DNA of 35,671 nt from Flavobacteriales bacterium (GTDB taxonomy: Bacteria > Bacteroidota > Bacteroidia > NS11-12g > UBA955), in the NCBI GenBank assembly GCA_947447955.1, contig CANFLS010000028.1, forward strand, positions 1 through 35,671. The letters run 5' to 3'. Made by a program: the position numbers and the translations under genes. Below the pieces are notes generated by a model. It searched no databases, had not been told where the DNA came from, and saw only the letters and a list, made by a program, of their open reading frames with translations. This document shows, piece after piece, positions 345 through 25,073 of the stretch (within the stretch, counting starts at the first letter, position 1; each line of letters begins with the position of its first letter).

Positions 345-379
345 AAAAAAAAGCCCCGTTTCCGGGGCTTTTTTTTGTT
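342..379 (-). terminator. Intrinsic terminator of the giant PKD gene
   Basis: 342-358 pairs perfectly with 363-379 (17 bp), with loop tttc at 359-362. The GC core gccccg/cggggc is flanked by eight A and eight T, so the signal is symmetric and could work on both strands. On the minus strand the hairpin begins inside the stop codon (378-380) of the 1871-aa gene, so that gene has essentially no 3' untranslated region before its terminator. Confidence 0.9.
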
Positions 380-3300
380 ATGGTGTTCTAATCAGATTGA
401 CTGATCCACTTACGTGGTTAATCTTAGTTTTTGATTTGAACTTATAATCTAACTGGTAGAAGTAAGTTCCAGAAGGAGCATCGGCTCCGTCATTGTTGAC
501 TTTACCATTCCAATGCTTTTTAGAGTCTTCAGAGTAGAATACTCTTTCACCCCAACGGTTGAAGATACGAATCTCGAACAAATCGTGTCCTTGAATAGGA
601 ACTTTGAAGAAGTCATTTTTACCATCAGCATTTGGCGTAAACACGTTAGCTAGGTATACGAACAAGTCAACTACAACTTCTTTACATATTGTATCTGAAC
701 AACCTGTTGCATTCTTAACTATCAAACAAGCCCAATATCTGCCAGAACTATCGTATGACCAGTGAACATCTTTATCAGTAGATTTCAAGTTTTCGATGAA
801 ATCATGTGGCATTGAATTCACAATGTCATTTTGATGACCAAAGCCCCATCTCCATTCTACACCATTAATGTCTTTACGAGTAAATACAAAGTCAGGTTTA
901 CCACTAGAATCTATGTCAAAGTCGGCAATCACACTATCTACGGTAAAGAACAAATCACCCATTACAGTTGGACACCATGGTCTTGGATGAGAACCATTGT
1001 AGTCTGCATAATGTGAAACTCTATACACACCTGGGTCATTGAACATTTTCGATACAGTTTTATTACCTGAAGTTAATGTATCCGTAACAACCTTACCTAA
1101 TTTCTTACTGTAGTGAACAAATTTCCATTTGTAAGATTTCAAAATTGTATCTGAATTATCTATGAACGTGTTGCTATCACCAGGACAAATTGCGGCCTTC
1201 AAAACTTTACCTCTAACAGTATCGCGTGGCAATACAGTAATGATGTAAGCTTGTTGACTCGGGGTATCAGGGTAAGTAGCAGGACATGGACGGTATATAT
1301 TTGGAGGAATAAACAAGTAATCATATTGCTCAAGACGAACATTATAAACACCTGGTTTTTTGAATGTATGCCACACAGTATCTACGAAGTGATCTGTAGC
1401 CCAAGGTTTTCCGTTAGGAGCTTTTGTGTACCAAGTAGAATCAGGACCAGAATACAATTCACCATCTCCAAAGAACCATGTCCAAACAGATTTCATAGAA
1501 GCTGAGTCAGACATATTTGTAAATTGAATACTATCACCCATACATATAGTTACATCATGACCCGCTTTGGTTGTGTATTCAAATCTAGGACGTGGTCCAG
1601 GAATTTTAACCCAACGACTGAAGGTATCAAAACAACCTCTTTGTGTAGACAATTGATATTTAATTTGGAACCAACCGTTACGTGTATATTTATGCGCAAC
1701 ACGGTTTGGTAAGCCAGCTTCAGTTTGCTTTTTACGGGTAAACTGATTGACAATACCATCTCCCCAATCAATAGTCCATTGTTTCACGAAATCACATGAA
1801 GTTGGAGCACCACCTGAACAGTTTTTAATAGCCCAATTACAAGGGTCAAACAAATGTGATGAATCAAAAAACTCTATAATTGAATTACAAGAAGGAGTTT
1901 GTAAATCTAAACCGAATTTAACATCTAGTCTAGAAATGAATACTCTCTTGGTTAATGTATCCATACAACCAGTAGAGTCACCTGCAACAACTCTAAACGT
2001 GTAAACACCTGAGTCATTGGTATAGTAGATTCCACCACCACCCAATTGTTTCCAAGGGTTAGCATTTGTACCGGCACCAACAGCACCATAAGGAGCACCA
2101 CCAAAAGGAGTTGACGTTCCATCATCTCTCTTATTCCAATCCCAACGTGTAAATCTTTCTACGTTAGTATCACCAGAAGTTAAACGAGCCGAACGCGCTG
2201 GATCTCTCCAATAATCGTATCCTGTAGGATTTTGAGTAGGGTCAGAATTCCATTGGTATTTCCAATCCCACTGTCCAAAGTTCTGCGGATCAGTTGAGAA
2301 ATATCTAAAGTCTGGAGAAGCAGTTAATGAATTACCCGCATCTTGACAAACCAAAGTATCATTAATTCTTAATCCCATTGCAAAACCAACAATAATTGGG
2401 TATGCACCTACTTTATCACATTTACCATTAGATGAAGTCATGTTCAAACTCATGATATGGAAACCAGCCCAACGAGGTCTAAATTTATAACCTTTAACTT
2501 TTTTAGTTTTCCTAGCCGCTTTATCCCAATAAGTAACACTATCCAAAGGTGAAATAGATGAATCACGATAGTGCAATATTGTTGTATTTTTAGGATCAGG
2601 AATAAAATAGAATTTAATAAATTTACCGAAACCAGTTGTATCGATACAACCATAGGCACCAGTAGCTGGTTGACCAATAACACCTTTGTTATTCCAAATC
2701 AATTTTGCAATCATGGTATCAGCCAATGCGAATGGATCAAATCCTCTTGCTTCCAATTTGGTTTTGATATTATCCCAAACCAAAGAAACGTCAGCACCAA
2801 TGGTATATTTACGAATTTCAGATGTGAAAATTGTATCTGGACCTTTATAGTTCTTAGCTACTCCGTCAGCCCAATCTTCAGAACAAGGAACTTGACGTGG
2901 GTTTTCAAGACCACGGGTTTGAACCATGTAATTGTAAAGATAGTTAGGATTTTTACCCGGAACTTTCTTCTGATTCAAGAAATAATCTTCTTGAATAAAT
3001 TGAGACCACTGATGAGCAAATACCGGAGTTGCATCACCTGTAGTTAATCTCCAACGCAATGATTTCAAATCTTTAATTCTTGTCTTATTTTTAGGGATAG
3101 GACGAACTACGATGTCATTATATTTACAAATTTTATAATCACCCAATTTATTTTTGGTTGGGGTTAACATTTCGAAATCAGTATCAATAATTGGGAAACA
3201 AGCAAAGTGATCGTAATACTGGGTATCAGCACACAATGGGCGTTTTGCAGAGTTTCCACCTGGAGGGGCAATACCGTTTCCTACAATAATACCTACAGTA

Positions 3301-5993
3301 ACACAACCTGTTGAATCATTACAAACATCAGAAGGATTGTATACTTGAGAGAATTTATTTGGAGGGTTACCTGCCAATTGATATCCTGTATTCCAGAAAG
3401 GCAATGGAGGATTCAAAGGACGACCACCTGGGAACAATCCTGGTAAAGAATTCCAGTTACCTGCAGTATTTCCGCAGAAAGTATCATAGTTAATCTTCAC
3501 TTCTGTAAAAGTACAACCTGGTTTCAAGTCACTCAAAATAAAAGTCACACCATAAGAAGGGTTATCAGAACCCAAACACTCAATCGCATCTTTTAACATA
3601 CCACTACCAACACCACCTGCGTTAGCATGAAGCATAGACAATTGTTTAATTGCTTCGCTTTCGCAATGCATTGGATGACAAGTATCTTTATGATTTAATT
3701 TAACATTGTTACATTGAGGAATTTTTGCATAATACAATTCACGGAAACGTTTGTAATTCACAAAGAAATCTCTGTTTCTTACCAATGTACCACCGTTTGT
3801 GTAATCCTTTTTGAAACGTTTGATGATCATTGGTTTTTCACCTTTTGCCTTACGAATTAGGTATAAATCTTTAGGCAAAGTATCCTTTTTAAGATAGTAA
3901 GTAAATAACCAAGTACAGCTATCATATTTGCTTTTTAATTTCAATATTTGTTTTGGCGCCATTGAAATTGTTTGAGGTCCTTTCTTTAAAACAAATGGAC
4001 CTGACGCTGGGCCAACATAGGCAGAATCACCCGCCTCCAATTTCACATCAACATAATCTTCAAAATATCTTTGTCCAACACCACGCATTCCTTTTTGGGT
4101 AGTTTTACCTGTAGGGTTTTTGGTAGATGAAGGTAAAGCTGGCGTATATTGACCATAATTATAATAGGTTGTAGTTTTATTCCCTACAAACTGAGCCTTT
4201 TTGGCAGTGATAACATCATTCATATCTGTAGGAACTACAATTAATGTATCCTGAATGATGTACATACTATCTGAAGGCCAAACTTGAACTTTTTTACACA
4301 AACCTTTTCCTTTGAAAATACCGGTATCCAAGAAAATCGCGTCTTCCATAGGTGCATTTTTGAAATCTGAAAGCATCACCAAATCCCATGATCTGTAATA
4401 GTGATTTGGAATTGAATCTCTTGAGAAGGCACAGTTTACATATACATTTTTATTTGCTCTTGTATCTGTAGTACATTTTGGCGCATAGTTGTCTCCAAAA
4501 TCCCACAAACGAGTAGCACATACTCTTTCTCTTTTCAAAGGATCAAATCCACCACCCGGTGCAGCTGTACCAGAATAACGGGTTACAGTTCCATTTAAGT
4601 TTGAATCCAATCTAATTGGCTTCATCCAAATTTGTGTTGGATTTTTAGCAGTTCCTTGGAAAACGTGTCCCAATGCTGGTGTTTTCCATTTATAGAAAGT
4701 ACTATCATCGTCGGTAAAGTTTCTATCATTGTGATAGAAGGTCGACAAGTTTTTCTTGAAATGCACAGTATCCATTACATCTTTTGGACATTGGAATGTT
4801 TCATAATCAGCCACCCTTTGGAAAGCTGATTCAATAGCAGAAGAAGGACCTAAAATAATAATTGTATCATAAGTAACCTTGTTTCCGCAAATTGGATGTT
4901 TGTATTCTAATTTAATTAAGAAAGGACCTAGGCCAGTAAAGGCATGTTCTGGAGTCCATGTTTTGTTATTTACATTTTGAGGACCAGAATTAGGGTCACC
5001 AAATGTCCACAACAAACCTGTTGCACCTGAAGGAATTTCATTTACACCAAATTTAATATTTGGCGCTGAAATACAAGTTGAATCTTTATCAGCCAAAATA
5101 ATTGCTACTGAACGGAAAACAGTTGCAGTTGCAGTCATTTTAAATGAATCAATACAACCGTCAATCGTTTGAATGACCATTTTAGAGTTATAAGTACCTT
5201 GTCCGTAGAACCAATGGTTTTTGTTAGGCCCCCAGGTTGTATCAATTGAACCATCACCCCAATACCAAGTAATTTTCTTTACAAATTTTGGATCAATGCT
5301 ACTAATATTTTTAATAATTGCTTGAACAGAATCGCACTGAATTGGTTTGTTACTTGTAAACTGAGCACCAATTTTAGCCCTAACTTCTACAGCCGCTGTA
5401 AGTTTCTGGGTATCTTGACAACCGTTTTCATCGGTTGTTTCAATGTATAAGTCAAACTTACCACCACGTTGATCTTTGATTGAGAAGCAAAGTCTGTTCG
5501 GCATTACTGACGGTGGAAAATCGTATTGAAACAATTGACCATCAGAAATTACATATTTTGTACTTGAAATTTTGGCACCATTTGCATTTGCTGTGCTATC
5601 ATCAAAACAAAACAAGTTTTTCTCAAAACATTGCTGTTTGAGATTCACCAATTTCATTTTAATTTTTGGTTTGTCCTTGATAACCAAATTCAACACGGCT
5701 GTACACTTGGTACCTCCAATTGTTGTTATGTAGGTTATTTTTGCATTTCCAGGTTTTTGAAACGCATAGTTGACAATTTTCTGACCACTACTGGTATATT
5801 TCGCACCAGTTGCATCAATAAATTCCCAATCATGGGTTGTACCTGAATTAGAACCGGTAAAGATAATTGCCGATCCAACGCAAGGAGAACCGCTGTACTG
5901 AATTGCACACTGTGCATTTGCAGTATTTGCTCCTAAAAACAATGTGCCAAGTATAACTACCCAGCTTTTTAAATATAAGGAAAATCCTTTCAT
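378..5993 (-). CDS. Giant PKD-repeat surface protein with T9SS type B (CHU_C) sorting domain
   Basis: Predicted 1871-aa secreted protein. The N-terminus MKGFSLYLKSWVVILGTLF to ANAQ is a signal peptide. Several PKD-like modules carry W-x-F/W-GDG cores at about residues 243, 329, 498, 1408 and 1507; PKD modules are beta-sandwich folds common in surface adhesins. The last 90 residues (from about 1784) match the gliding-motility-associated C-terminal domain CHU_C, with NVFTPNADGKNDFF, IFNRWGE and W-x-G motifs, which directs export through the type IX system. The frame stays open upstream to an ATG at 6128, giving 45 more residues, but I choose 5993 because the signal peptide begins there and a consensus promoter lies inside the extension. 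It is the last gene of an ECF sigma/anti-sigma cluster. The ligand is unknown; an adhesin or gliding-related role is inferred. Confidence 0.88.
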   Translation of the reverse strand: MKGFSLYLKSWVVILGTLFLGANTANAQCAIQYSGSPCVGSAIIFTGSNSGTTHDWEFIDATGAKYTSSGQKIVNYAFQKPGNAKITYITTIGGTKCTAVLNLVIKDKPKIKMKLVNLKQQCFEKNLFCFDDSTANANGAKISSTKYVISDGQLFQYDFPPSVMPNRLCFSIKDQRGGKFDLYIETTDENGCQDTQKLTAAVEVRAKIGAQFTSNKPIQCDSVQAIIKNISSIDPKFVKKITWYWGDGSIDTTWGPNKNHWFYGQGTYNSKMVIQTIDGCIDSFKMTATATVFRSVAIILADKDSTCISAPNIKFGVNEIPSGATGLLWTFGDPNSGPQNVNNKTWTPEHAFTGLGPFLIKLEYKHPICGNKVTYDTIIILGPSSAIESAFQRVADYETFQCPKDVMDTVHFKKNLSTFYHNDRNFTDDDSTFYKWKTPALGHVFQGTAKNPTQIWMKPIRLDSNLNGTVTRYSGTAAPGGGFDPLKRERVCATRLWDFGDNYAPKCTTDTRANKNVYVNCAFSRDSIPNHYYRSWDLVMLSDFKNAPMEDAIFLDTGIFKGKGLCKKVQVWPSDSMYIIQDTLIVVPTDMNDVITAKKAQFVGNKTTTYYNYGQYTPALPSSTKNPTGKTTQKGMRGVGQRYFEDYVDVKLEAGDSAYVGPASGPFVLKKGPQTISMAPKQILKLKSKYDSCTWLFTYYLKKDTLPKDLYLIRKAKGEKPMIIKRFKKDYTNGGTLVRNRDFFVNYKRFRELYYAKIPQCNNVKLNHKDTCHPMHCESEAIKQLSMLHANAGGVGSGMLKDAIECLGSDNPSYGVTFILSDLKPGCTFTEVKINYDTFCGNTAGNWNSLPGLFPGGRPLNPPLPFWNTGYQLAGNPPNKFSQVYNPSDVCNDSTGCVTVGIIVGNGIAPPGGNSAKRPLCADTQYYDHFACFPIIDTDFEMLTPTKNKLGDYKICKYNDIVVRPIPKNKTRIKDLKSLRWRLTTGDATPVFAHQWSQFIQEDYFLNQKKVPGKNPNYLYNYMVQTRGLENPRQVPCSEDWADGVAKNYKGPDTIFTSEIRKYTIGADVSLVWDNIKTKLEARGFDPFALADTMIAKLIWNNKGVIGQPATGAYGCIDTTGFGKFIKFYFIPDPKNTTILHYRDSSISPLDSVTYWDKAARKTKKVKGYKFRPRWAGFHIMSLNMTSSNGKCDKVGAYPIIVGFAMGLRINDTLVCQDAGNSLTASPDFRYFSTDPQNFGQWDWKYQWNSDPTQNPTGYDYWRDPARSARLTSGDTNVERFTRWDWNKRDDGTSTPFGGAPYGAVGAGTNANPWKQLGGGGIYYTNDSGVYTFRVVAGDSTGCMDTLTKRVFISRLDVKFGLDLQTPSCNSIIEFFDSSHLFDPCNWAIKNCSGGAPTSCDFVKQWTIDWGDGIVNQFTRKKQTEAGLPNRVAHKYTRNGWFQIKYQLSTQRGCFDTFSRWVKIPGPRPRFEYTTKAGHDVTICMGDSIQFTNMSDSASMKSVWTWFFGDGELYSGPDSTWYTKAPNGKPWATDHFVDTVWHTFKKPGVYNVRLEQYDYLFIPPNIYRPCPATYPDTPSQQAYIITVLPRDTVRGKVLKAAICPGDSNTFIDNSDTILKSYKWKFVHYSKKLGKVVTDTLTSGNKTVSKMFNDPGVYRVSHYADYNGSHPRPWCPTVMGDLFFTVDSVIADFDIDSSGKPDFVFTRKDINGVEWRWGFGHQNDIVNSMPHDFIENLKSTDKDVHWSYDSSGRYWACLIVKNATGCSDTICKEVVVDLFVYLANVFTPNADGKNDFFKVPIQGHDLFEIRIFNRWGERVFYSEDSKKHWNGKVNNDGADAPSGTYFYQLDYKFKSKTKINHVSGSVNLIRTP

Positions 5994-6019
5994 AAGTTTA
6001 TTTTTCGTACGTAAAAGTT

Positions 6020-6050
6020 CAAAAATAGGTTTTTTTGTTGATTTACCAAA
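6020..6050 (-). promoter_or_regulatory. Bacteroidota-type promoter of the giant PKD gene
   Basis: On the minus strand, TTTG (6050-6047) is followed after 19 bases by TATTTTTG (6027-6020). This is an exact fit to the Bacteroidota housekeeping consensus TTTG-N19-21-TAnnTTTG. Transcription would start about 20 bases before the ATG at 5993. The site implies that the giant gene can be transcribed apart from the sigma/anti-sigma pair. Confidence 0.7.
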
Positions 6051-6117
6051 CAATGAGCAATTTTGAACATCATTTTTCGGCAATTCATTGATTTCACTAA
6101 ACCAATTATTTTTCATA

Positions 6118-7263
6118 TTAATTTCCATTAGAATTTCGATTTAAATTTACCCAACGTGTTGTTACACTTTCTTTTTCGCCACTGTATTGTGTTTTGATTA
6201 CCACTTCATAATTGCCATCAATACATGGCTCTCCAAAACAATTTCCGTTCCATGAATCACGGAATTTCGTAGTGGAAAATATCATTTTTTTACCCTTATC
6301 AAAAACCATCATTTCGAAATTTTTTGGTTCAGGAATTGTTATATAATACGCATCATTTTTACCGTCTCCATTGGGAGTAAAAACGGTTGGAATCATTGTT
6401 TCACTTATTGATATTGAAGGAGTTACCTCCACTTTTGTCATAGCACTATCCACACATCCATTCGAAAAAATAGATACCAATTTTATATAAAAATCTTTTC
6501 TAGAATTTACCTTGTAAAAATGATTTACAGCGATTGTATTTCCCTCAAAAAACATCAATTGACCATCTCCAAAATTCAAATAAGATTTTTTTACATTTCC
6601 ATTACAATTAACATTGACCAAATTCCCATTTGAATCAGATTCAACCACACTTAATGTCAATTTATTCTTACAACCATTTTCAATAATATTCCCCAGAACT
6701 GATGAAATTTCATTTTTTGATTTTTGCGCATCCTTTTTATCAGCAATGATAGATTGAATATTATTCAGTAAATTATCACCATTGCCATCAGATTTAACTG
6801 CCAAAAGATCTGTGTTCATTGCTGAAAGTGGATGATAAACGATATATCTATTTCCCTCCTCAATTTGTGTTTTATTACCGTTATCTTCCAATTGACTATC
6901 AGGATTAACAACATCATTATTTAAACCTGTTTCAATTTGACCAGTTTCCTTATTCTCGTTTAAAGATTGCTTTGGGCTAATTTTATTTTGAGTTGAAATC
7001 GCGTTTATTGGATTTAACTTCAAATTGTCATCTTTCAACAATTCAAAGGCAACAACACCACTTACAACAACTGTAGCGACAATTGCAACTTTAGAAACCA
7101 ATCCCAATTTTGCAAACCAACTTTTTGCAGCGACTGTTTGAGAAACACTTGAAACATTTGATAATTGATGAGAAATTCCTTGCCAAGCATTTGCTGGCGG
7201 AATTTCGTTTGCATTTTCTAATGCCGAACGGAAGAGTTGGTCAATATTGTCTTCTGGTAGCAT
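6118..7263 (-). CDS. Anti-sigma-like single-pass membrane protein with PKD-like and CHU_C domains
   Basis: Predicted 381 aa. Residues 1-50 form a cytoplasmic-looking segment (DNIDQLFRSALENA, then PPANAWQ) of the kind found in anti-sigma factors encoded next to Bacteroidota ECF sigmas. Residues about 56-76 are one hydrophobic span without a signal-peptidase site. An Asn/Lys-rich linker follows, then a PKD-like module (LNFGDG, around 220-285) and a terminal CHU_C domain (VFTPNGDGKNDAYY). No zinc-binding HxxxCxxC anti-sigma motif is present, so the anti-sigma role rests on position and topology. The start at 7263 overlaps the sigma stop by one base (TAATG), which favours it over an in-frame ATG at 7290. 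A T9SS-type sorting domain on a membrane-anchored regulator is unusual. Confidence 0.75.
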   Translation of the reverse strand: MLPEDNIDQLFRSALENANEIPPANAWQGISHQLSNVSSVSQTVAAKSWFAKLGLVSKVAIVATVVVSGVVAFELLKDDNLKLNPINAISTQNKISPKQSLNENKETGQIETGLNNDVVNPDSQLEDNGNKTQIEEGNRYIVYHPLSAMNTDLLAVKSDGNGDNLLNNIQSIIADKKDAQKSKNEISSVLGNIIENGCKNKLTLSVVESDSNGNLVNVNCNGNVKKSYLNFGDGQLMFFEGNTIAVNHFYKVNSRKDFYIKLVSIFSNGCVDSAMTKVEVTPSISISETMIPTVFTPNGDGKNDAYYITIPEPKNFEMMVFDKGKKMIFSTTKFRDSWNGNCFGEPCIDGNYEVVIKTQYSGEKESVTTRWVNLNRNSNGN

Positions 7264-7799
7264 TATCGTGAAATTTGAGATTGAAGCCATTTACGGGCTT
7301 TGAACATTTGAGATTTGCTCGTATTTTCTGAGATATTTAAAATTTCAGCTATTTCCGCGTGGGAGTATCCCTCAATAGCAAACATATTAAAAACCGTTCT
7401 ATACCCAACAGGCAGTTTCATTAGCAATTGCATTAAGTTTTTAACATTGATTTCAGCAAATACATCATCATTTGAAGCAATTAACTCATGCACATTATCG
7501 AGACTATCTTGAAACTTAGCTTTGCTTTTTTTCAATGTATCTAGACATTGATTTACACAAATACGTTTCAGCCACCCCTCTAAGGATCCCTCAAAGCGAA
7601 AATCGCCTAGTTTTTGGTAAATCTTTATCATTGCTTCTTGAAACATATCTTCTGCTAAAATATCTTGACCGGCATAGCGTTTACAAATGGCAAACAACAC
7701 TCCCGAATAGCGTTGGTAGAATTCGTGTTGCGCCAATTTCTCGCCCGCCACACAAGCCATTACCATTTTTTTCTCTTCGGTGATTTGCTCTATTGCCAT
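7263..7799 (-). CDS. ECF-type RNA polymerase sigma factor (sigma-70 family)
   Basis: 178 aa, the usual ECF length. Region 2 spans about residues 25-90 (FYQRYSGVLFAICKRY, then AEDMFQEAMIKIYQKL and WLKRICVNQCLD), containing the core-binding and -10-recognition helices. Region 4 spans about 120-175 with the helix-turn-helix YSHAEIAEILNISENTSKSQ, which reads the -35 element. No region 1.1 or 3 is seen, as expected for ECF factors. It directly precedes, and is coupled by a one-base overlap to, a membrane protein that is its likely regulator. A GGCAAC motif and a palindrome lie upstream and may be an autoregulated promoter. The targets cannot be named from this window, though the giant PKD gene is an obvious candidate. 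Confidence 0.92.
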   Translation of the reverse strand: MAIEQITEEKKMVMACVAGEKLAQHEFYQRYSGVLFAICKRYAGQDILAEDMFQEAMIKIYQKLGDFRFEGSLEGWLKRICVNQCLDTLKKSKAKFQDSLDNVHELIASNDDVFAEINVKNLMQLLMKLPVGYRTVFNMFAIEGYSHAEIAEILNISENTSKSQMFKARKWLQSQISR

Positions 7800-7831
7800 T
7801 TGCCAATTTCATAATCCGGATTTTAAACAAG

Positions 7832-7857
7832 ATTGTATTCGCAATACAATAGTTGCC
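7832..7857 (-). promoter_or_regulatory. Palindrome and GGCAAC motif upstream of the ECF sigma gene
   Basis: ATTGTATT (7832-7839) and AATACAAT (7843-7850) form a perfect 8-bp inverted repeat around CGC. On the minus strand GGCAAC (7857-7852) lies directly upstream of it and resembles the GGAAC/GGCAAC -35 elements used by many ECF sigmas. The site lies between the delta' stop and the sigma start. There is no T-run, so it is unlikely to be a terminator. An autoregulated promoter or operator is inferred. Confidence 0.4.
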
Positions 7858-10742: not shown

Positions 10743-11888
10743 TTAGTCTTTCTTTACTTTTCCGTTAGATTCTGAACCTAAGCCAATTCTAATTCCAAAA
10801 GAATGGCAACCACCGAATGGATTCGTAGCACGGTAGCTGTAGTCAATTGAAATAACATTGTCTTGATTATCACCATCCATAACATGCCAATCATAGCTTA
10901 AGCCACAAAATGGACCAGTAAATGCCGATGTTCTGGTGTCTTCACTAAAAATACCTTCTTGGTAAGCAAAACCACCGCGTACCATAATAAAATCTTTATA
11001 AGCGTATTCAGCAGATAAGGTAGTTTGATTTGCGCTAAATGAATTGTTTGTGAATCCAAATCCCACAGTTAAACGATTATCGTATTGGTTGTCAGATTTA
11101 TCCAATTTGATATCATAAGATGCGGCAATATTTAACAAAGCTGGCAATTTAACCGCAGATGTTTTCACAATCATGGTTTTATCAAATGTTCCATTTTGCA
11201 ACATTGCTTTATAACTTAGACCTTCACCAGTGAAATCCATATCCGGACCAATATTTTTAATTGAGATACCGAAGTTAAAATCGTTCTTTTTGATGTTGTT
11301 TCTTGAAGGGCTTAAATTGGCAGAATACTGAACACCTGCATCAATTGACATTCCATTTGCTTGTGCATCAGGAATACCTTCAGAAAGCATTCTTGCGGTT
11401 ACACCAGCAGAAATGTTTTTACTGAAACTTTTCGAGTACGACAAACCAATATTGGTCATGCTTACTCTGTAGGTACCGATACCACCGTAAGGATTTTGTT
11501 CAGTTCTGATATCGATTGGATCTATACCAAATTGCATAACTTGAATACCTAAAGTACCACCTTCTCCGTCTTCACCCATTCTCTGAGCGAAACCAACGTT
11601 ATTAACGCCAATTCCAGAGCCTACGAGCCATTCGGTACGGTTAAATACCAATTCAGTATTGTTCACCATTCTATCTAGGCCAGCAACGTTCATAAACATT
11701 GCTTCTGCACCCATAATTCTTCCGCCGTTTGCCCAACCCATTCCCGAGCTTCTGCTCCATGGATTGATTGTAAGTTGAGCCGCACCAGCTTGACCTTGAC
11801 GCTCAGGATTACCAGCGAAAAGGTTATTTGCACCACTTAACAAAATTGTTAAAGCAACTGCCGATATATTTTTCAAATTGATTTTCAT
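10743..11888 (-). CDS. PorV/PorQ-like outer-membrane beta-barrel protein
   Basis: 381 aa with a signal peptide (MKINLKNISAVALTILLSGANNLFAGN). The mature start, GQAGAAQLTINPWSRSSGMGWAN and then GAEAMFMNVAGLDR, matches the opening of PorV/PorQ family barrels (FadL-like fold), in which a run of conserved small residues plugs the barrel. Alternating beta-strand pattern continues to the C-terminus. PorV is the T9SS shuttle that passes cargo to the sortase; PorV-like paralogues often sit beside large T9SS cargoes, as here. It is the third gene of a tight three-gene unit, 11 bp after the 1304-aa gene. The TTG at 11897 is less likely than the ATG at 11888. Whether it serves all cargo or only its neighbour is unknown. 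Confidence 0.78.
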   Translation of the reverse strand: MKINLKNISAVALTILLSGANNLFAGNPERQGQAGAAQLTINPWSRSSGMGWANGGRIMGAEAMFMNVAGLDRMVNNTELVFNRTEWLVGSGIGVNNVGFAQRMGEDGEGGTLGIQVMQFGIDPIDIRTEQNPYGGIGTYRVSMTNIGLSYSKSFSKNISAGVTARMLSEGIPDAQANGMSIDAGVQYSANLSPSRNNIKKNDFNFGISIKNIGPDMDFTGEGLSYKAMLQNGTFDKTMIVKTSAVKLPALLNIAASYDIKLDKSDNQYDNRLTVGFGFTNNSFSANQTTLSAEYAYKDFIMVRGGFAYQEGIFSEDTRTSAFTGPFCGLSYDWHVMDGDNQDNVISIDYSYRATNPFGGCHSFGIRIGLGSESNGKVKKD

Positions 11889-11899
11889 CGTTGTCAATA

Positions 11900-14800
11900 T
11901 TAATAAGTATCTAAATCAACGGCATGCATAATTCCATACCAACGTACAATTTTCTCACCTAAACCTGGAGCTTTAACATGAATTAAGTATAAGCCGCTTG
12001 CAATAGGCACATTGCTTCCATTTTTCAAATCCCACTGATAGTAAGTTGCATCATCCGCTTTATTTATTGTGCGAATCAAATTACCAGACATGTCAAATAT
12101 TGTAATCTTACATGTAGGTGGCAAATTGATGATTTTAACTCTTGAATCAATAGGGCTATTTTCGTATTCGCTGTAACCTCTATAAGGATTAGGTACAACA
12201 TTTACCATGTCTAATGATTTTTTACCAATATCCACAGAACGTTTAGGGGCAATTAATCCACCATCAAATTCGTACATTGGCAATGAGTATTTGTTACTTC
12301 CGCCTCTGTCAACTTGGTTCCTAATATCCTTAGATTCAAGAGGAGCATAAGCTTTTTTGATTCTCACAGTTATTGTTACGTCAGTTGGTGGAACTCCATC
12401 CTTCATTGAGTAGCCACCTGCCAAATAGGTTGGAATAATCCAATTTACTTGCGACAACAATTTCAATTTTTCAGACTTATTTGCGTCCGTACCCACTGCA
12501 GCAGCTTCAAGCCCTTTTCTGAATCTATCAAAATCAGCATCGGCTTCACCCATGTATCTTACACCTTGGTTTGTTCTGGTTGTTCCAGATTTTCCAGTTC
12601 CAAAGATGTAAATAAAATGTTTACCACCAATTGCAGGATAATTTGCATTGTCGTTATAAATATTTGGAGTAGGGTTCCAAAGCATATCTCTACCATTTTC
12701 ACCAGCCAAATAACTATCTTCACCAAATGCCAAAGCCAATCTCTCACCGGTTTCCAAATTAATAGCATAACCTGGGAAATAACTTAAACCTTTATTTCCA
12801 ACAATTTCATTACCATCTTTGTCTTTTGAAACACCCCAACGCATGTTGAATTTATTCATTTTACCTTCGGTACTATTCAAAAGCTCTTCATCTCCCATTT
12901 CCAATACTGGACAACGGGTCCATTTTGATTTGTCTTTGGTGATTACCAATTTGAAACTTGAAAGTTCAGAAATTGGATTTTGCAACCAAGAAGTATTTCC
13001 AGACCATGCAAATCCGTATGTATTTTTATCATTAGTCGCACTGTATTTTTCACGTGCAGCCAATCCATAAGGAGCAATTCTACCACCCCAAATTTTTTCA
13101 AAAGACTGACTTGGATCTACTGGAGTAACTCCATCAGACATCATAAAATCGAATGTATAACCATCAAATGTAGCAACTCCTTTTCCGGTATAACCAGAAC
13201 GAATCCAATTCAACCAAAGGCTACCAGAAGTCGGTGTACTTTGCGCGTCGTTATCCGCAACAGCATTTAACCATTGTTTTCCATTGTCTTCCCATTTCAC
13301 AGACCAATCTAATAATCCGTTTGACGGATCTCCCGTTACAAATTCACCTGGATTGTTGGTTTGAGCAATTTCTATACTCAATCCCCAATCAGCCAAAGTT
13401 TCTTTGGTGCGATTTAGCAAACTTCTCTTTCCTTGAACTGATTCAAAACGATATGCCAAAGAAGTATCTGAGAAAATAGTATCATTACCATCGTCATTTT
13501 TCTTAACCAAGAACCAAGTTGTATTTTTGGTAATAGAATCTTTCAATCCAGCTAAAAGAGAAGGTTTCTTTTCTTTGAATACCAATTCAAACTTAGCATC
13601 TGGAACCTTTAATGGATCAACCACTTTGATGTTTACCGGTCCAGCACCACCTACGTAAGTTGGTTTCTCAGCATAATTGTTCTTTAAAATTTCGTCAATT
13701 GTCTCTTGGGTAAACTCTAAAGACATTCCACCATTACCACGACCAGAAATTCTTGACAACAATGGTCCAGAACCATATCCTGAAGTCAATTCCGTTCCAG
13801 CATTTTCAGGCATTGGATCATGTGGTGTTGCACGGTAAGTTTTAATATTTCTTCTACCAGCTAAAAACTGATTCGGATCAACTTGTAATGAATCGTCACT
13901 CAATATGGCATAACTCATAACCATATAGTAATAGTTTTTGAAGTCTATCAATTGAGTATTTGCAGTTGTTGCAAACAAATCATTTTTGATGCTATATGAA
14001 TGTTGAACACCTTTATCAGCTCCGTCAACTTTTTCAACTGGAATATTTTGAGACAACTTTGGATCAAAAACCTTATTGATAATTTGACCTCTGTTATTTT
14101 TGATGTCACATTGGAAAAGCAAACGTGCTTTATCAATATTATCTAGATCACCTGTATTTACAGTACCATCTTTTAATTGATATACCAAATAACCTTCAAA
14201 TTTATAAGTTTTGGTTTTGTTGTTTGCGTCTTTATATAATTCAGTATAATTTTCAATTTTACCAGAATTCGTATTTAAGAATTTCAAAACAACTTCTTGA
14301 TTCAATTCTTGAACATCAACGTCAGGCGCATTTGGACCATCTAGAATTTTAAAATTGTTATTAAACAATGTTTGTGCTTTATCAGAAGCCAATTTCAATA
14401 AATCCAATGAACCTTGAGCACCACCTTGGGTAGTTCTAGCCCAAACAACACCAACAGTAATGCGTTGAACTTGTCCTGGTTTCATTAAGAAAGGACCAGT
14501 AGATTGAATAAAACGACGATCGCCAGGACGGTTACCTGCAGTTTTCTCTGTCCAAGTCTCACCTGCGAATTGAGGATCTGTATTGCCCGGGAACATATAG
14601 TTACAAACCCTAGATCCGCCTAAACCATTACCACCCCAAGTTACATTTTGGCCACCTTTCCATTTTCCCATCAAGAAATTATAGTATTGATTGGCAGTTA
14701 ATGGGTCACCTGTAATTTGGTCTGCAGAGTTATTATAATACATAAAGTGACTCAATCCCATTTGCTTTCCAGCAGTATCTGTTGGACCTTCAAAATAATC

Positions 14801-15814
14801 AACACCAATTGTAGGAGGATTTAAACCATAGCCTAATACCCCTTCATCATCATCGTCACCATTGTAACAGAAACCCAAACCACGACCAACATCACAACCT
14901 ACATAGTCATCGGCATAGTTACCCAAATCGGCATCTACCCATTGTCCCATATAACAATCATTCAAAGCGGTAAAACCTCTATTGATAATTTTGGTTGAAT
15001 AGAAAGTCATATTATTTACTTCATCATTGGTAGAAAAAGCAAATGCAGTAGTTTGACACTCAATACCAATTGCTTGGCCTGTAGTACCGTGAATATTACC
15101 TTTATCGTTGTAAACCCACCAAATAAACATATCTGGTTGACGGTCTACTCCATTTTCAGCAACAGGACGACGTTCATCAATTACTGGATGTTCTCCATCT
15201 GTTGGATTGTATAAACCATCAGGAACAACTTCTTTATAAGGTGCCAAGTATTCAGATTCAGCTCCAATTTTATAAGAACGAGAACTACCAGCTGGCCAAT
15301 CACGAATACCTGCACTTTGAGTTAAAAACTTACTATTTGCAAATTCTTCTAATTCATCGCGGGTTACTTTCCACATTTTATCGTAAGATTTACAACGCAC
15401 TGGATCTGTTGATGCCGTTGTTGTATCCAATGGTCCTGGCCAAAAATCAACACCGCTTTGACGATAAGTCATTGCAGCCAATTTTAAGTTACCGCCATTA
15501 TCTTTACCACCAATCCAAATTGCACCGGCAAACAAAGAATGTTTACGCACTGCATTAGGGTCAGTAATTTTAGGAATTTCATATTTTGGATTATTTAAAT
15601 CCCACCACATATCACCACCATTCAACAATTTTGTACGAACGTTGTTTATGTCCAAATCTACAGATTGAGAAGCTGGATCACAGGTATTTGCAAAAGCACC
15701 CGCGCGCTTGTCAATCGTTGGTTTGATTGTTCTGTGTGTTAGATTTTCAATTGGACGCGCAGTCGCAAATTGAAAAGCTAACAATCCTAAAACATATATA
15801 CCAATTTTTTTCAT
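11900..15814 (-). CDS. Large secreted protein with C-terminal T9SS type A-like sorting domain
   Basis: 1304 aa. Signal peptide MKKIGIYVLGLLAFQFATA, then a mature domain with repeated Gly/Trp/Asp-rich stretches (NNGGDMWWDLNNPKYE-like opening, SLFAGAIWIGGKDNGGNLK, then FWPGPLD). The C-terminal ~100 residues (NVVPNPYRGYSEYEN, then KITIFDMSGNLIRTI, then SGLYLIHVKAPG) have the fold and order of the T9SS type A / FlgD-like sorting domain. It runs about 15 residues past the usual end (VRWYGIMHAVDLDTY), a tail I have seen only loosely associated with this family. No catalytic motif is recognised. It lies 24 bp after the TonB receptor and 11 bp before a PorV-like barrel, so the three are probably one operon acting at the outer membrane. 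Function is not established. Confidence 0.8.
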   Translation of the reverse strand: MKKIGIYVLGLLAFQFATARPIENLTHRTIKPTIDKRAGAFANTCDPASQSVDLDINNVRTKLLNGGDMWWDLNNPKYEIPKITDPNAVRKHSLFAGAIWIGGKDNGGNLKLAAMTYRQSGVDFWPGPLDTTTASTDPVRCKSYDKMWKVTRDELEEFANSKFLTQSAGIRDWPAGSSRSYKIGAESEYLAPYKEVVPDGLYNPTDGEHPVIDERRPVAENGVDRQPDMFIWWVYNDKGNIHGTTGQAIGIECQTTAFAFSTNDEVNNMTFYSTKIINRGFTALNDCYMGQWVDADLGNYADDYVGCDVGRGLGFCYNGDDDDEGVLGYGLNPPTIGVDYFEGPTDTAGKQMGLSHFMYYNNSADQITGDPLTANQYYNFLMGKWKGGQNVTWGGNGLGGSRVCNYMFPGNTDPQFAGETWTEKTAGNRPGDRRFIQSTGPFLMKPGQVQRITVGVVWARTTQGGAQGSLDLLKLASDKAQTLFNNNFKILDGPNAPDVDVQELNQEVVLKFLNTNSGKIENYTELYKDANNKTKTYKFEGYLVYQLKDGTVNTGDLDNIDKARLLFQCDIKNNRGQIINKVFDPKLSQNIPVEKVDGADKGVQHSYSIKNDLFATTANTQLIDFKNYYYMVMSYAILSDDSLQVDPNQFLAGRRNIKTYRATPHDPMPENAGTELTSGYGSGPLLSRISGRGNGGMSLEFTQETIDEILKNNYAEKPTYVGGAGPVNIKVVDPLKVPDAKFELVFKEKKPSLLAGLKDSITKNTTWFLVKKNDDGNDTIFSDTSLAYRFESVQGKRSLLNRTKETLADWGLSIEIAQTNNPGEFVTGDPSNGLLDWSVKWEDNGKQWLNAVADNDAQSTPTSGSLWLNWIRSGYTGKGVATFDGYTFDFMMSDGVTPVDPSQSFEKIWGGRIAPYGLAAREKYSATNDKNTYGFAWSGNTSWLQNPISELSSFKLVITKDKSKWTRCPVLEMGDEELLNSTEGKMNKFNMRWGVSKDKDGNEIVGNKGLSYFPGYAINLETGERLALAFGEDSYLAGENGRDMLWNPTPNIYNDNANYPAIGGKHFIYIFGTGKSGTTRTNQGVRYMGEADADFDRFRKGLEAAAVGTDANKSEKLKLLSQVNWIIPTYLAGGYSMKDGVPPTDVTITVRIKKAYAPLESKDIRNQVDRGGSNKYSLPMYEFDGGLIAPKRSVDIGKKSLDMVNVVPNPYRGYSEYENSPIDSRVKIINLPPTCKITIFDMSGNLIRTINKADDATYYQWDLKNGSNVPIASGLYLIHVKAPGLGEKIVRWYGIMHAVDLDTY

Positions 15815-22952: not shown

Positions 22953-25046
22953 TTACTTTTTCGTCCAATCATAGAGAATCTGAATAGATTCATCCAATTG
23001 GGCATCTTTCATGTATCGTTTCACCCAATCAAGTCTTTGCGCTTTTTTCACTTCATCTGATTTCACTTCATCAATATCCATTTTCAAAGCCATAACAGTG
23101 TCAATTACATTTTTATATTTGTAATCTTTAAATGTTTTTTCTTGGGCTTTTAGCGCTTTTTGTTGGGTTTTGTATCCTTCCAAACTCAAACTATAAGTAT
23201 ATGATTTTCTAATCTTCGCTATATCAGTAGCACGTTTTTTGATTAAATTAAAATACTCATTCTTTTGTGTTCTAAGAATTGCATCTTTAATGATTGCAGT
23301 GCGACCTGGATTATCAAACAATTTATATTTTGCAGCCGGAATTTTATCAAATGGCATGTGATAATCCATTTCCTTTTCTCCTTGCTCAATTCCATCGTAA
23401 ATATCAGGTAAAATCACATCTGGAATCACGCCCATTAATTGAGTAGTACCACCATTAATTCTGTAGAATTTTTGAATGGTTACTTTCACATCGCCGTAAC
23501 CTCGAGGAAACAATGCCGATTTACCACCTTGTAGTGGCAACATGGTTTGCACAGTACCTTTTCCAAAGGTTGTATTTGTACCTACAATAATTGCGCGTTT
23601 ATAGTCTTGTAAAGCTGCAGCCAAAATTTCAGATGCCGATGCACTATATGTATTTGTTAAAATAACCAATGGTCCTGCAAATTGAATTTCCGGATCTGGA
23701 TCTGGGGCTTGTTGAATGCGTTGGCTTGGATCTTTCACTTGAACGATTGGTCCTTCTTTGATAAACAAACCACCCATATCAATTGCATCGGCCAAACTTC
23801 CACCACCATTATTTCTTAAATCCATAACAATGCCATCTACTTTTTCTAGATTTAACTTTTCAAGTTCCAATCGAATATCTTCACTGCTGTGTCTACCTCT
23901 GCCTTGGGCCGCAAAATCAGCATAAAAACTAGGCAATTGAATTAAACCAAATCTCTTTCCTTTAAAATTCACAATTGCACTTCTTGCGTAACTTTCATCA
24001 ATTACAACTACTTCACGAATAATTGGAATAACGTGAATACTACCGTCCGGTTTTTTCACGGTTAAACGCACTTCAGTACCTTTTTTACCACGAATTAACT
24101 GAATTGCATCATCTAATTTCATGTCAACAATATCCACTGGATCTGCTTTTCCTTGGGCAACTTTTAAAATCAAATCGCCGGCTTTCAATTCGCCTTGTCG
24201 CGCACTTGCACTACCTGGAACAATGCGTTCAACTTTTACATATCCGTCTTTTTCTGATAACGTGGCTCCAATTCCTTCCAATTTACCAGTCATAGAAATA
24301 TCGAAATTCGCTTTTTCTTCTGGTGGGAAATAATTTGAATGAGGATCATAAATTTCGGTTATACAGTTTGCATAAAGGCTCAATTTATCTTTTTGATCCA
24401 TTTTTCTCCAACGCTTAAACCAATCTTTACAGAATTTTAAGGTTTCTGTTCTCGCTTTTAATTCTAGTGTATCAAAAGGCAATATTTTCACAATTGCAGA
24501 ATCTTTCTTTTGCTTTACATTTTCTTGATCTTCAATTTTGCGATACAATCTATCAATGGTTTGAAATTGCAACCAATTTTTCCAATCGGTTTTCAAAGCT
24601 TCCAAATTAGGTTTGTATTTTATAACCTTATTTTCAAGTAAATAACTTTGATTTGATTTGTAGTTCAAAGGAGAAGATAATTCTTTTTCAATGATTGGTT
24701 CAAGAACGTTTAAACGCACCATTAAAATAGACCAAGCCGAATCTAAGAAATCGTAACGACCCACTTTAATTTGGTCGTCAATAGATTTTTTAAACACACT
24801 CAGTTTATTGATGTCTTCTTGGGTAAAAAAATGCTTGTCGTCATCCAAATTATTCAGGAGGTTTTCATATACCATTTCCGAAAATTTATCATCAAGCTTC
24901 AAAGGCGCATAATGTTGTTCAGACATTGCATCGGTTAACCTGATAAGCAAAGGCTCGTTGCCATTACTTTGTTTATTACTACAAAAAACCAAAACAGCCA
25001 TTACGGCTGCTATACTGGTTAGGGAAACCCATCTATTAATTTTCAT
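22953..25046 (-). CDS. prc: C-terminal processing (tail-specific) serine protease, S41 family
   Basis: 697 aa. Signal sequence MKINRWVSLTSIAAVMAVLVF precedes a cysteine that lacks a clear lipobox. The N-terminal helical domain of the Prc/Tsp family follows (LDDDKHFFTQEDINKL). A PDZ domain lies at about 230-310 (GIGATLSEKDGYVKVERIVPGS). The S41 core follows with DLRNNGGGSL and the catalytic pair Ser470 (middle serine of SASAS) and Lys496 in FGKGTVQ. The C-terminal domain continues to SIQILYDW. Prc degrades or trims periplasmic proteins at their C-termini. The TTG at 25049 is one codon before the ATG chosen. It lies 27 bp after the M49-like peptidase gene and is probably co-transcribed with it. 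Confidence 0.93.
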   Translation of the reverse strand: MKINRWVSLTSIAAVMAVLVFCSNKQSNGNEPLLIRLTDAMSEQHYAPLKLDDKFSEMVYENLLNNLDDDKHFFTQEDINKLSVFKKSIDDQIKVGRYDFLDSAWSILMVRLNVLEPIIEKELSSPLNYKSNQSYLLENKVIKYKPNLEALKTDWKNWLQFQTIDRLYRKIEDQENVKQKKDSAIVKILPFDTLELKARTETLKFCKDWFKRWRKMDQKDKLSLYANCITEIYDPHSNYFPPEEKANFDISMTGKLEGIGATLSEKDGYVKVERIVPGSASARQGELKAGDLILKVAQGKADPVDIVDMKLDDAIQLIRGKKGTEVRLTVKKPDGSIHVIPIIREVVVIDESYARSAIVNFKGKRFGLIQLPSFYADFAAQGRGRHSSEDIRLELEKLNLEKVDGIVMDLRNNGGGSLADAIDMGGLFIKEGPIVQVKDPSQRIQQAPDPDPEIQFAGPLVILTNTYSASASEILAAALQDYKRAIIVGTNTTFGKGTVQTMLPLQGGKSALFPRGYGDVKVTIQKFYRINGGTTQLMGVIPDVILPDIYDGIEQGEKEMDYHMPFDKIPAAKYKLFDNPGRTAIIKDAILRTQKNEYFNLIKKRATDIAKIRKSYTYSLSLEGYKTQQKALKAQEKTFKDYKYKNVIDTVMALKMDIDEVKSDEVKKAQRLDWVKRYMKDAQLDESIQILYDWTKK

Positions 25047-25073
25047 CAAATAATATCAAATAAAGACTTTAAT

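Follow-up and report, generated by a model that had tools for sequence, protein, structure and literature searches.

What does a sigma factor have to do with the tag that routes cargo to the type IX secretion system (T9SS)? The question is raised by three adjoining genes near the start of a 35,671-nucleotide stretch of DNA from a Flavobacteriales bacterium (contig CANFLS010000028.1, assembly GCA_947447955.1; the whole stretch is called the window below). They encode an extracytoplasmic function (ECF) sigma factor, a single-pass membrane protein ending in a domain that resembles the type B C-terminal domain (CTD) of T9SS cargo, and a giant protein with PKD domains and a type B CTD. The reading favored here, at a probability of about 0.4, is that the membrane protein is a trans-envelope anti-sigma factor of Dma-like build that docks at a site of type B CTDs, and that the state of secretion frees the sigma factor.

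Architecture of the sigma factor/membrane protein pair

All three genes, like the domains and promoters described with them, lie on the minus strand, and the positions and sizes given for them by the first-pass annotation, including a one-base overlap of the first two genes, were reproduced. The sigma factor gene (7263..7799; 178 amino acids, aa) encodes Sigma70_r2 (E = 3.2e-14) and Sigma70_r4_2 (E = 7.5e-18) domains, and its product is 40-98% identical to those of 18 relatives. It ends in TAATG, which contains the ATG of the membrane-protein gene (6118..7263; 381 aa, or 390 aa from a longer in-frame start), so that the genes overlap by one base. The giant gene (378..5993) lies in a mechanical open reading frame (ORF) of 1916 aa and is read here from its likeliest start, Met46 (window position 5993), which gives 1871 aa. 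As annotated, the giant adjoining the pair has PKD domains and a type B CTD, the latter with NRWG (393..650); it matches CHU_C at E = 2.1e-20 and TIGR04131 at 51.4 bits. Both families also match the membrane protein (CHU_C, E = 1.4e-11; TIGR04131, 38.0 bits, cut-off 35), and VFTPN-x-DGKND is present in the CTDs of both proteins.

The 381-aa protein was modeled as a single chain with AlphaFold2 (mean predicted local distance difference test score, pLDDT, 69). Residues 1-38 (7150..7263) make up a predicted N-terminal sigma-binding-type domain, identified through hhalign homology and modeled with helices at residues 7-16 and 26-35. Hydropathy agrees with the single membrane pass annotated earlier: one transmembrane (TM) segment at residues 55-73 (7045..7101; mean hydropathy 2.29 over 19 residues) is oriented positive-inside, with a net charge of +2 before and -1 after it. 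Among the 61 members of the aligned family, 54 have a hydrophobic segment scoring >1.6 and none has a second stretch >1.8. A disordered tether follows (approximately residues 74-201; 6661..7044; block pLDDT 34-58 for residues 71-200), the low scores and disorder of the model running from residue 38 to ~195. Beyond it lie a PKD-like domain (residues 202-280; 6424..6660), modeled as strands with block pLDDT 74-95, and a CHU_C/type B CTD-like domain that lacks NR[WYF]G (residues 291-372; 6148..6393); the pLDDT of these two domains, counting the CTD to residue 374, is mostly near or above 90. Foldseek matched the PKD part to the PKD1 domains 6aem and 4l9d, a profile search matched it to solved PKD domains, and the whole model retrieved multi-domain beta-sandwich proteins and PKD domains. 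When solved relatives of the CTD were sought by sequence, only PKD matches were returned, plus weak matches of FlgD and C5a peptidase to the CTD part. The distance from TM segment to CTD is 112-296 residues over the 61 members (median 212; the PKD part is included where present), and six members with 112-134 residues keep the CTD (L080, L120, L124, L135, L142 and L188; loci and genomes are cited by our L and G handles) and, from the shorter length, probably have no PKD part.

This order of parts is that of the Dma proteins, for which PMC13088901 describes an N-terminal sigma-binding domain, a TM helix, a disordered tether and a C-terminal beta-barrel, with an ECF21 sigma factor adjacent, and which it reports from Bacteroidota only. 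The window protein resembles Dma in an N-terminal domain that, by sequence, is of the sigma-binding type, a single TM segment, a long disordered tether, a C-terminal outer domain and an adjacent ECF sigma factor, and differs in carrying a PKD-like and T9SS type B CTD-like head where Dma has a beta-barrel. As it has no beta-barrel, the window protein is not filed as a Dma member; it appears to work like Dma with another head, a plan that the first-pass annotation had missed.

The comparison was made through a barrel-tailed family of the window's own genome rather than the Dma sequences of B. thetaiotaomicron. The 38 N-terminal columns of the CTD type are homologous to those of the barrel-tailed type from the same genome (hhalign probability 94.7, E = 6.4e-8). 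At least one pair in that genome follows the Dma plan (L193/L283, G000:C4:59754-61596): the model of L283 has helices at residues 8-16 and 25-35, a TM helix at 40-66, disorder and eight long strands predicted to form a barrel, and the protein has a sub-threshold match to Pfam OMP_b-brl. Two more ECF-linked pairs of the genome, L192 (G000:C26) and L195 (G000:C64), are similar by eye only. Across the barrel-tailed family, a sigma match was found in 21 of 22 fetched loci (L298 and L304 overlap). In a tree of the sigma factors, 58 of 65 rows fall on one branch (Shimodaira-Hasegawa-like approximate likelihood ratio test, 99) made up of 41 CTD-type, 16 barrel-type (two of them labeled by eye) and one other sigma factor, while seven other sigma factors of the window's genome fall outside it.

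Conservation of the pair and of the three-gene order

The first-pass annotation had called for a search for the three-gene order in other Bacteroidota. The pair proved widely conserved and the order with the giant is kept in many lineages. A search of 57 genomes supplied 20 relatives, chosen by ORF size. All have the pair and 18 also have a giant of ~1590-1920 aa; the remaining two are at contig ends. Mean column identity is 62% for the giant versus 31% for the membrane protein. A second set of 20 loci, also picked by ORF size, has a sigma match directly upstream in 15; four have none (L182-L185), and L174 has sigma matches in two frames (5253-5802), a gene that looks broken or a contig error. 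When 91 loose anti-sigma calls were pooled (some organisms occur twice in this pool, as in the pool of 88 records used below), a sigma factor was found upstream in 83 and a giant-type ORF downstream in 76. The eight calls that lack a sigma factor comprise two at contig ends (L182, L185), two whose upstream protein is not a sigma factor (L183, L184), two that are probably cargo (L155, L158), L174, and L127; profile A4 excluded L078, L127 and L182-L185.

The pair is also found beside more distant giants. In a named genome collection, 28 loci with giants of mostly 27-34% identity were gathered (L118, L119, L121, L122, L124 and L126-L148), and 19 of them have a sigma factor and a CTD-bearing membrane protein upstream, where the upstream neighbor differs from the one in the window's family, so shared synteny alone does not account for the pair. 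One further locus (L127) has the membrane protein and no sigma match, and three are truncated where the contig begins (L118, L129, L133). At two other loci (L175, 3755-8683; L178, 5448-10407), the CTD-type pair is followed by a second ECF sigma factor, a protein of 245-249 aa and uvrC.

At the class level, 198 genomes were searched with the 61-member alignment as profile, and 30 loci were fetched. In all 26 full-length relatives an ECF sigma gene of the same strand immediately precedes the membrane-protein gene, with a gap of -31 to +48 nucleotides (nt), and the other four loci are partial matches of 608-749 aa with no sigma factor beside them; L326 and L330, partial in the search listing, were counted as full-length by our own scan. 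Since 14 of the 26 had been members of the profile (99-100% identical), picked partly after the sigma factor was seen, independent evidence comes from the other 12, all of which have the sigma factor and show 24-70% identity to the nearest member. The 26 pairs are spread over 13 of 66 family codes. These are minimum figures for the class, taken from the matches listed, and no locus came with two more genomes that have full-length matches (G186, G244). In a phylum-level sample of 148 genomes, E <= 1e-40 was reached only by the window's own genome, and as the 20 of 147 other genomes listed all belong to one class, the sample says little about other classes. Overall, the architecture and conservation of the pair are firm, and the pair type is widespread yet far from universal.

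These counts bear on the possibility that the 381-aa protein is no anti-sigma factor and sits beside the sigma gene through operon sharing. Such an explanation would fit the finding that no Pfam anti-sigma domain matched the membrane protein, and that the NCBIfam anti-sigma model NF052375 matched one of the 61 members only (E = 7.8e-4). Against it stand the adjacency itself, which spans 13 family codes and holds in 26 of 26 relatives, among them all 12 that lay outside the profile, and the N-terminal homology to a barrel-tailed family that has its own sigma match in nearly every fetched locus. We regard operon sharing as very unlikely, and the predicted action of the membrane protein as an anti-sigma factor as likely.

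A predicted promoter and a proposed mechanism

Upstream of the sigma gene lies a predicted autoregulatory promoter, GGCAAC-N18-ATCTT (7829..7857), which starts 58 nt before the sigma ATG. The strict form of its consensus, GGCAAC-N18-NTCTW, precedes the sigma gene in 54 of the 88 records, against a mean of 1.3 and a maximum of 6 in mononucleotide shuffles, and a relaxed form is found in 20 of the 26 class-level pairs, a count made without a control. The sequence and position of the motif suggest autoregulation by the ECF sigma factor. A second copy lies between the anti-sigma gene and the giant in L067/L094, L074, L106, L110 and L180, again counted without a control.

The secretion system itself is present in the window's genome, with one SprA, six PorP/SprF matches, none of which lies on the window's contig, and 40 TIGR04131 matches, 30 of them over the cut-off. 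In the mechanism that we propose, the short cytoplasmic two-helix domain would hold the sigma factor at the inner membrane, as homology and gene order suggest, while the TM helix and a tether spanning the periplasm would extend towards the outer membrane and carry the PKD and CTD-like head. At that membrane the head would dock at a partner of type B CTDs, which could be a shuttle of the PorP/SprF type, the T9SS translocon or CTD cargo, and would not be exported, because part of the type B signal is missing. A change at the docking site, such as secretion load, a jam or loss of cargo, may then alter the tethered head and free the sigma factor; both the nature of this signal and its direction are our inference. 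Free sigma factor would transcribe its own operon from the GGCAAC-N18-NTCTW promoter, and read-through, or the second motif copy in a few lineages, would raise expression of the giant.

Other features of the window were noted beside these genes. Past the end of the giant, positions 1-376 hold direct repeats seen by eye (units with cggattagac), and a hairpin followed by a T run at ~345-376 looks, also by eye, like the terminator of the giant. A gene of the PorV/PorQ family (10743-11897; NF033709, 117.7 bits) adjoins one for a 1304-aa protein (11900-15814) whose type A CTD match is barely under the cut-off (22.8 bits versus 23), and a prc-type carboxy-terminal processing protease gene lies at 22953-25049 (TIGR00225, 279.2 bits).

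Sensor head or export tag

Several observations, set out in this and the next two paragraphs, weigh against the reading of the membrane protein as a secretion-sensing anti-sigma factor of Dma-like build. In the AlphaFold2 model the TM segment (residues 55-73) is not helical and has pLDDT <50, and the sigma tree has long branches, those of the seven outside sigma factors, which were flagged by the program. Both the sigma factor and the membrane protein are absent at five of the 28 distant-giant loci (L119, L136, L139, L140 and L143), and the pair was not found at the 11 weakest giant-like loci (L149-L159); it is not carried by every giant-like gene. Conversely, five pairs (L175, L178, L186, L187 and L189) show no T9SS sorting domain in the next genes scanned, the L187 gene being incomplete because its locus ends there; the signal may therefore be something other than the giant.

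Promoter patterns add to these points. Searched genome-wide, RCAACY-N17-WTCTW, which excludes the GTCT and CTCT forms, gave 50 matches in the window's genome but 63 in a control read backwards; in G007 the figures were 43 and 64. The sites examined (49 in the window's genome, the sigma promoter excluded, and 30 of the 43 in G007) fall inside ORFs of >=80 aa or >=60 aa, except for L228, at a contig end, and L269. With matches not above the control, no T9SS regulon is seen, and a large sigma regulon visible by this pattern was rejected. The giant, moreover, is preceded by a predicted housekeeping -7 box, TATTTTTG (6020..6027), 34 nt before Met46, which fits TAnnTTTG, the sigma-A consensus according to PMC9723704. 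A TAnnTTTG box lies within 90 nt of the giant start in 32 of 60 records (shuffles: mean 1.6, maximum 7), namely in 28 of 32 loci of the window-family type, 22-41 nt upstream, and in four of 28 other loci. In the window's family, sequence thus points to a housekeeping promoter that the giant probably has to itself, which the first-pass annotation left out of account; there the giant would probably be constitutive and boosted by the sigma factor. A conserved leader peptide before the signal peptide of the giant was considered and rejected, since the conserved IFE stretch coincides with the TAnnTTTG box.

The remaining points concern the CTD. The anti-sigma CTDs (n = 50) keep TP..D..N (49), W.G (47) and G.Y (50), and [NS]R[WYF]G is found in none of the 50 and in none of the 26 class-level pairs; with D allowed, two of 61 anti-sigma proteins match (L075 and L181, both DRYG). 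The last-strand pattern is kept in 17 of 50. The motif is found in all 39 giants and in 22 of the 27 further CTD proteins from the window's genome (30 loci minus L003 and L018, the window's own genes, and L030). Some cargo is also without the motif (L001, L008, L013) or has DRWG instead (L016, L021), and three of the four partial class-level loci, which are cargo, are negative for it over the final 110 residues. Fourteen further CTD ORFs were also checked: [NSD]R[WYF]G occurs in eight and TRWG in three, the last three being stretches outside a normal CTD. According to Paillat et al. (PMC12618676), type B CTDs have five conserved motifs, each necessary for secretion, of which we take NR[WYF]G to be one. 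With this motif absent and the last strand often changed, the T9SS may not recognize the anti-sigma CTD, and its ordinary secretion becomes less likely. Like type B cargo, the anti-sigma protein has a TIGR04131-family CTD with TP..D..N, W.G and G.Y; unlike cargo, it has no NR[WYF]G and, in place of a signal peptide, a positive-inside membrane anchor preceded by ~54 residues, as judged from hydropathy. The earlier interpretation is supported in part: the sigma/anti-sigma-like pair, the periplasmic-side CHU_C domain and the giant beside it are retained, and the idea that the membrane-held domain may compete for or report on the T9SS machinery stays a hypothesis.

These findings also reduce the appeal of secretion-coupled release, in which the tethered CTD would be drawn by the T9SS into its translocon or through the outer membrane; being pulled or cleaved would then trigger proteolysis of the anti-sigma factor, so that sigma activity reports a working T9SS. 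The logic is comparable to that of FlgM export, and a C-terminal CTD, a spacing of 112 residues or more between TM segment and CTD and the T9SS of the genome would all suit it. The lost motif and altered last strand count against it, as does the Sec signal peptide of T9SS effectors (described in PMC12618676), where the window protein has an anchor ~54 residues from its N-terminus; we consider such release improbable.

A further possibility is that the protein is a trans-envelope anti-sigma factor whose CTD-like fold is a plain ligand-binding immunoglobulin (Ig)-type head that makes no contact with the T9SS and responds to envelope stress or to a ligand in the periplasm or at the outer membrane, for instance a glycan. 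The absence of NR[WYF]G from all 50 CTDs is as this would have it, given that each of the five type B motifs is reported to be needed for secretion, and for Dma2 a glycan-sensing role has been hypothesized (PMC13088901). In a weakly resolved CTD tree of 107 rows, 42 of 44 anti-sigma CTDs stand apart from all 36 giants, which suggests an old divergence; the 42 share their side with four cargo CTDs, and L186 and L189 sit among cargo. On this tree we rejected the idea that the anti-sigma CTD arose as a recent copy of the one in the adjoining giant, and of the earlier statement that the two CTDs are of the same type, common family membership and the shared VFTPN-x-DGKND hold, while a close copy is spoken against by this separation and by the missing NR[WYF]G. 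A plain Ig-type head is harder to reconcile with the match of 60 of 61 members to the T9SS type B model TIGR04131 at E <= 0.001, with the most conserved columns of the membrane protein, which are mainly CTD positions and include TPNGDG..ND and W.G, and with the giant CTD cargo that often follows the pair. It is a possible explanation, though we lean to doubting it. Missing NR[WYF]G favors docking or sensing over export, and we take the anti-sigma CTD for a module that docks or senses, not for an export tag that works, though loss of any T9SS role would fit as well. A link between the head and the T9SS is thus put forward as a testable proposal.

Known regulators offer partial parallels. In FecR/FpvR cell-surface signaling, an inner-membrane anti-sigma factor reads the state of the outer membrane through a separate TonB-dependent transducer; the putative anti-sigma factor of the window is likewise of the inner-membrane type and carries the sensor head itself. 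In the PorA-PorXY-SigP pathway of Porphyromonas gingivalis (PMC7712824), the CTD protein PorA influences an ECF sigma factor, with no direct PorA-PorY contact found by the authors. That pathway, too, ties a CTD protein to an ECF sigma factor around the T9SS, but PorA is a surface protein that acts via a two-component system, whereas here the CTD is inside the putative anti-sigma factor. Literature searches, whose coverage of subscription papers was poor, found no description of a CTD-bearing anti-sigma factor. That the locus represents a class of trans-envelope anti-sigma factors, using a secretion-incompetent copy of the T9SS tag as an occupancy sensor at the outer membrane and so coupling expression to the state of the T9SS, is advanced tentatively and at less than even odds.

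How Bacteroidota sense the state of their T9SS is the question that such a protein addresses, and a covalently attached head resembling the export tag would be a direct link between secretion and transcription. If the proposed reading is right, the Dma plan would be modular, with exchangeable outer heads, and cells would use a T9SS export tag as a sensor, not a passport.

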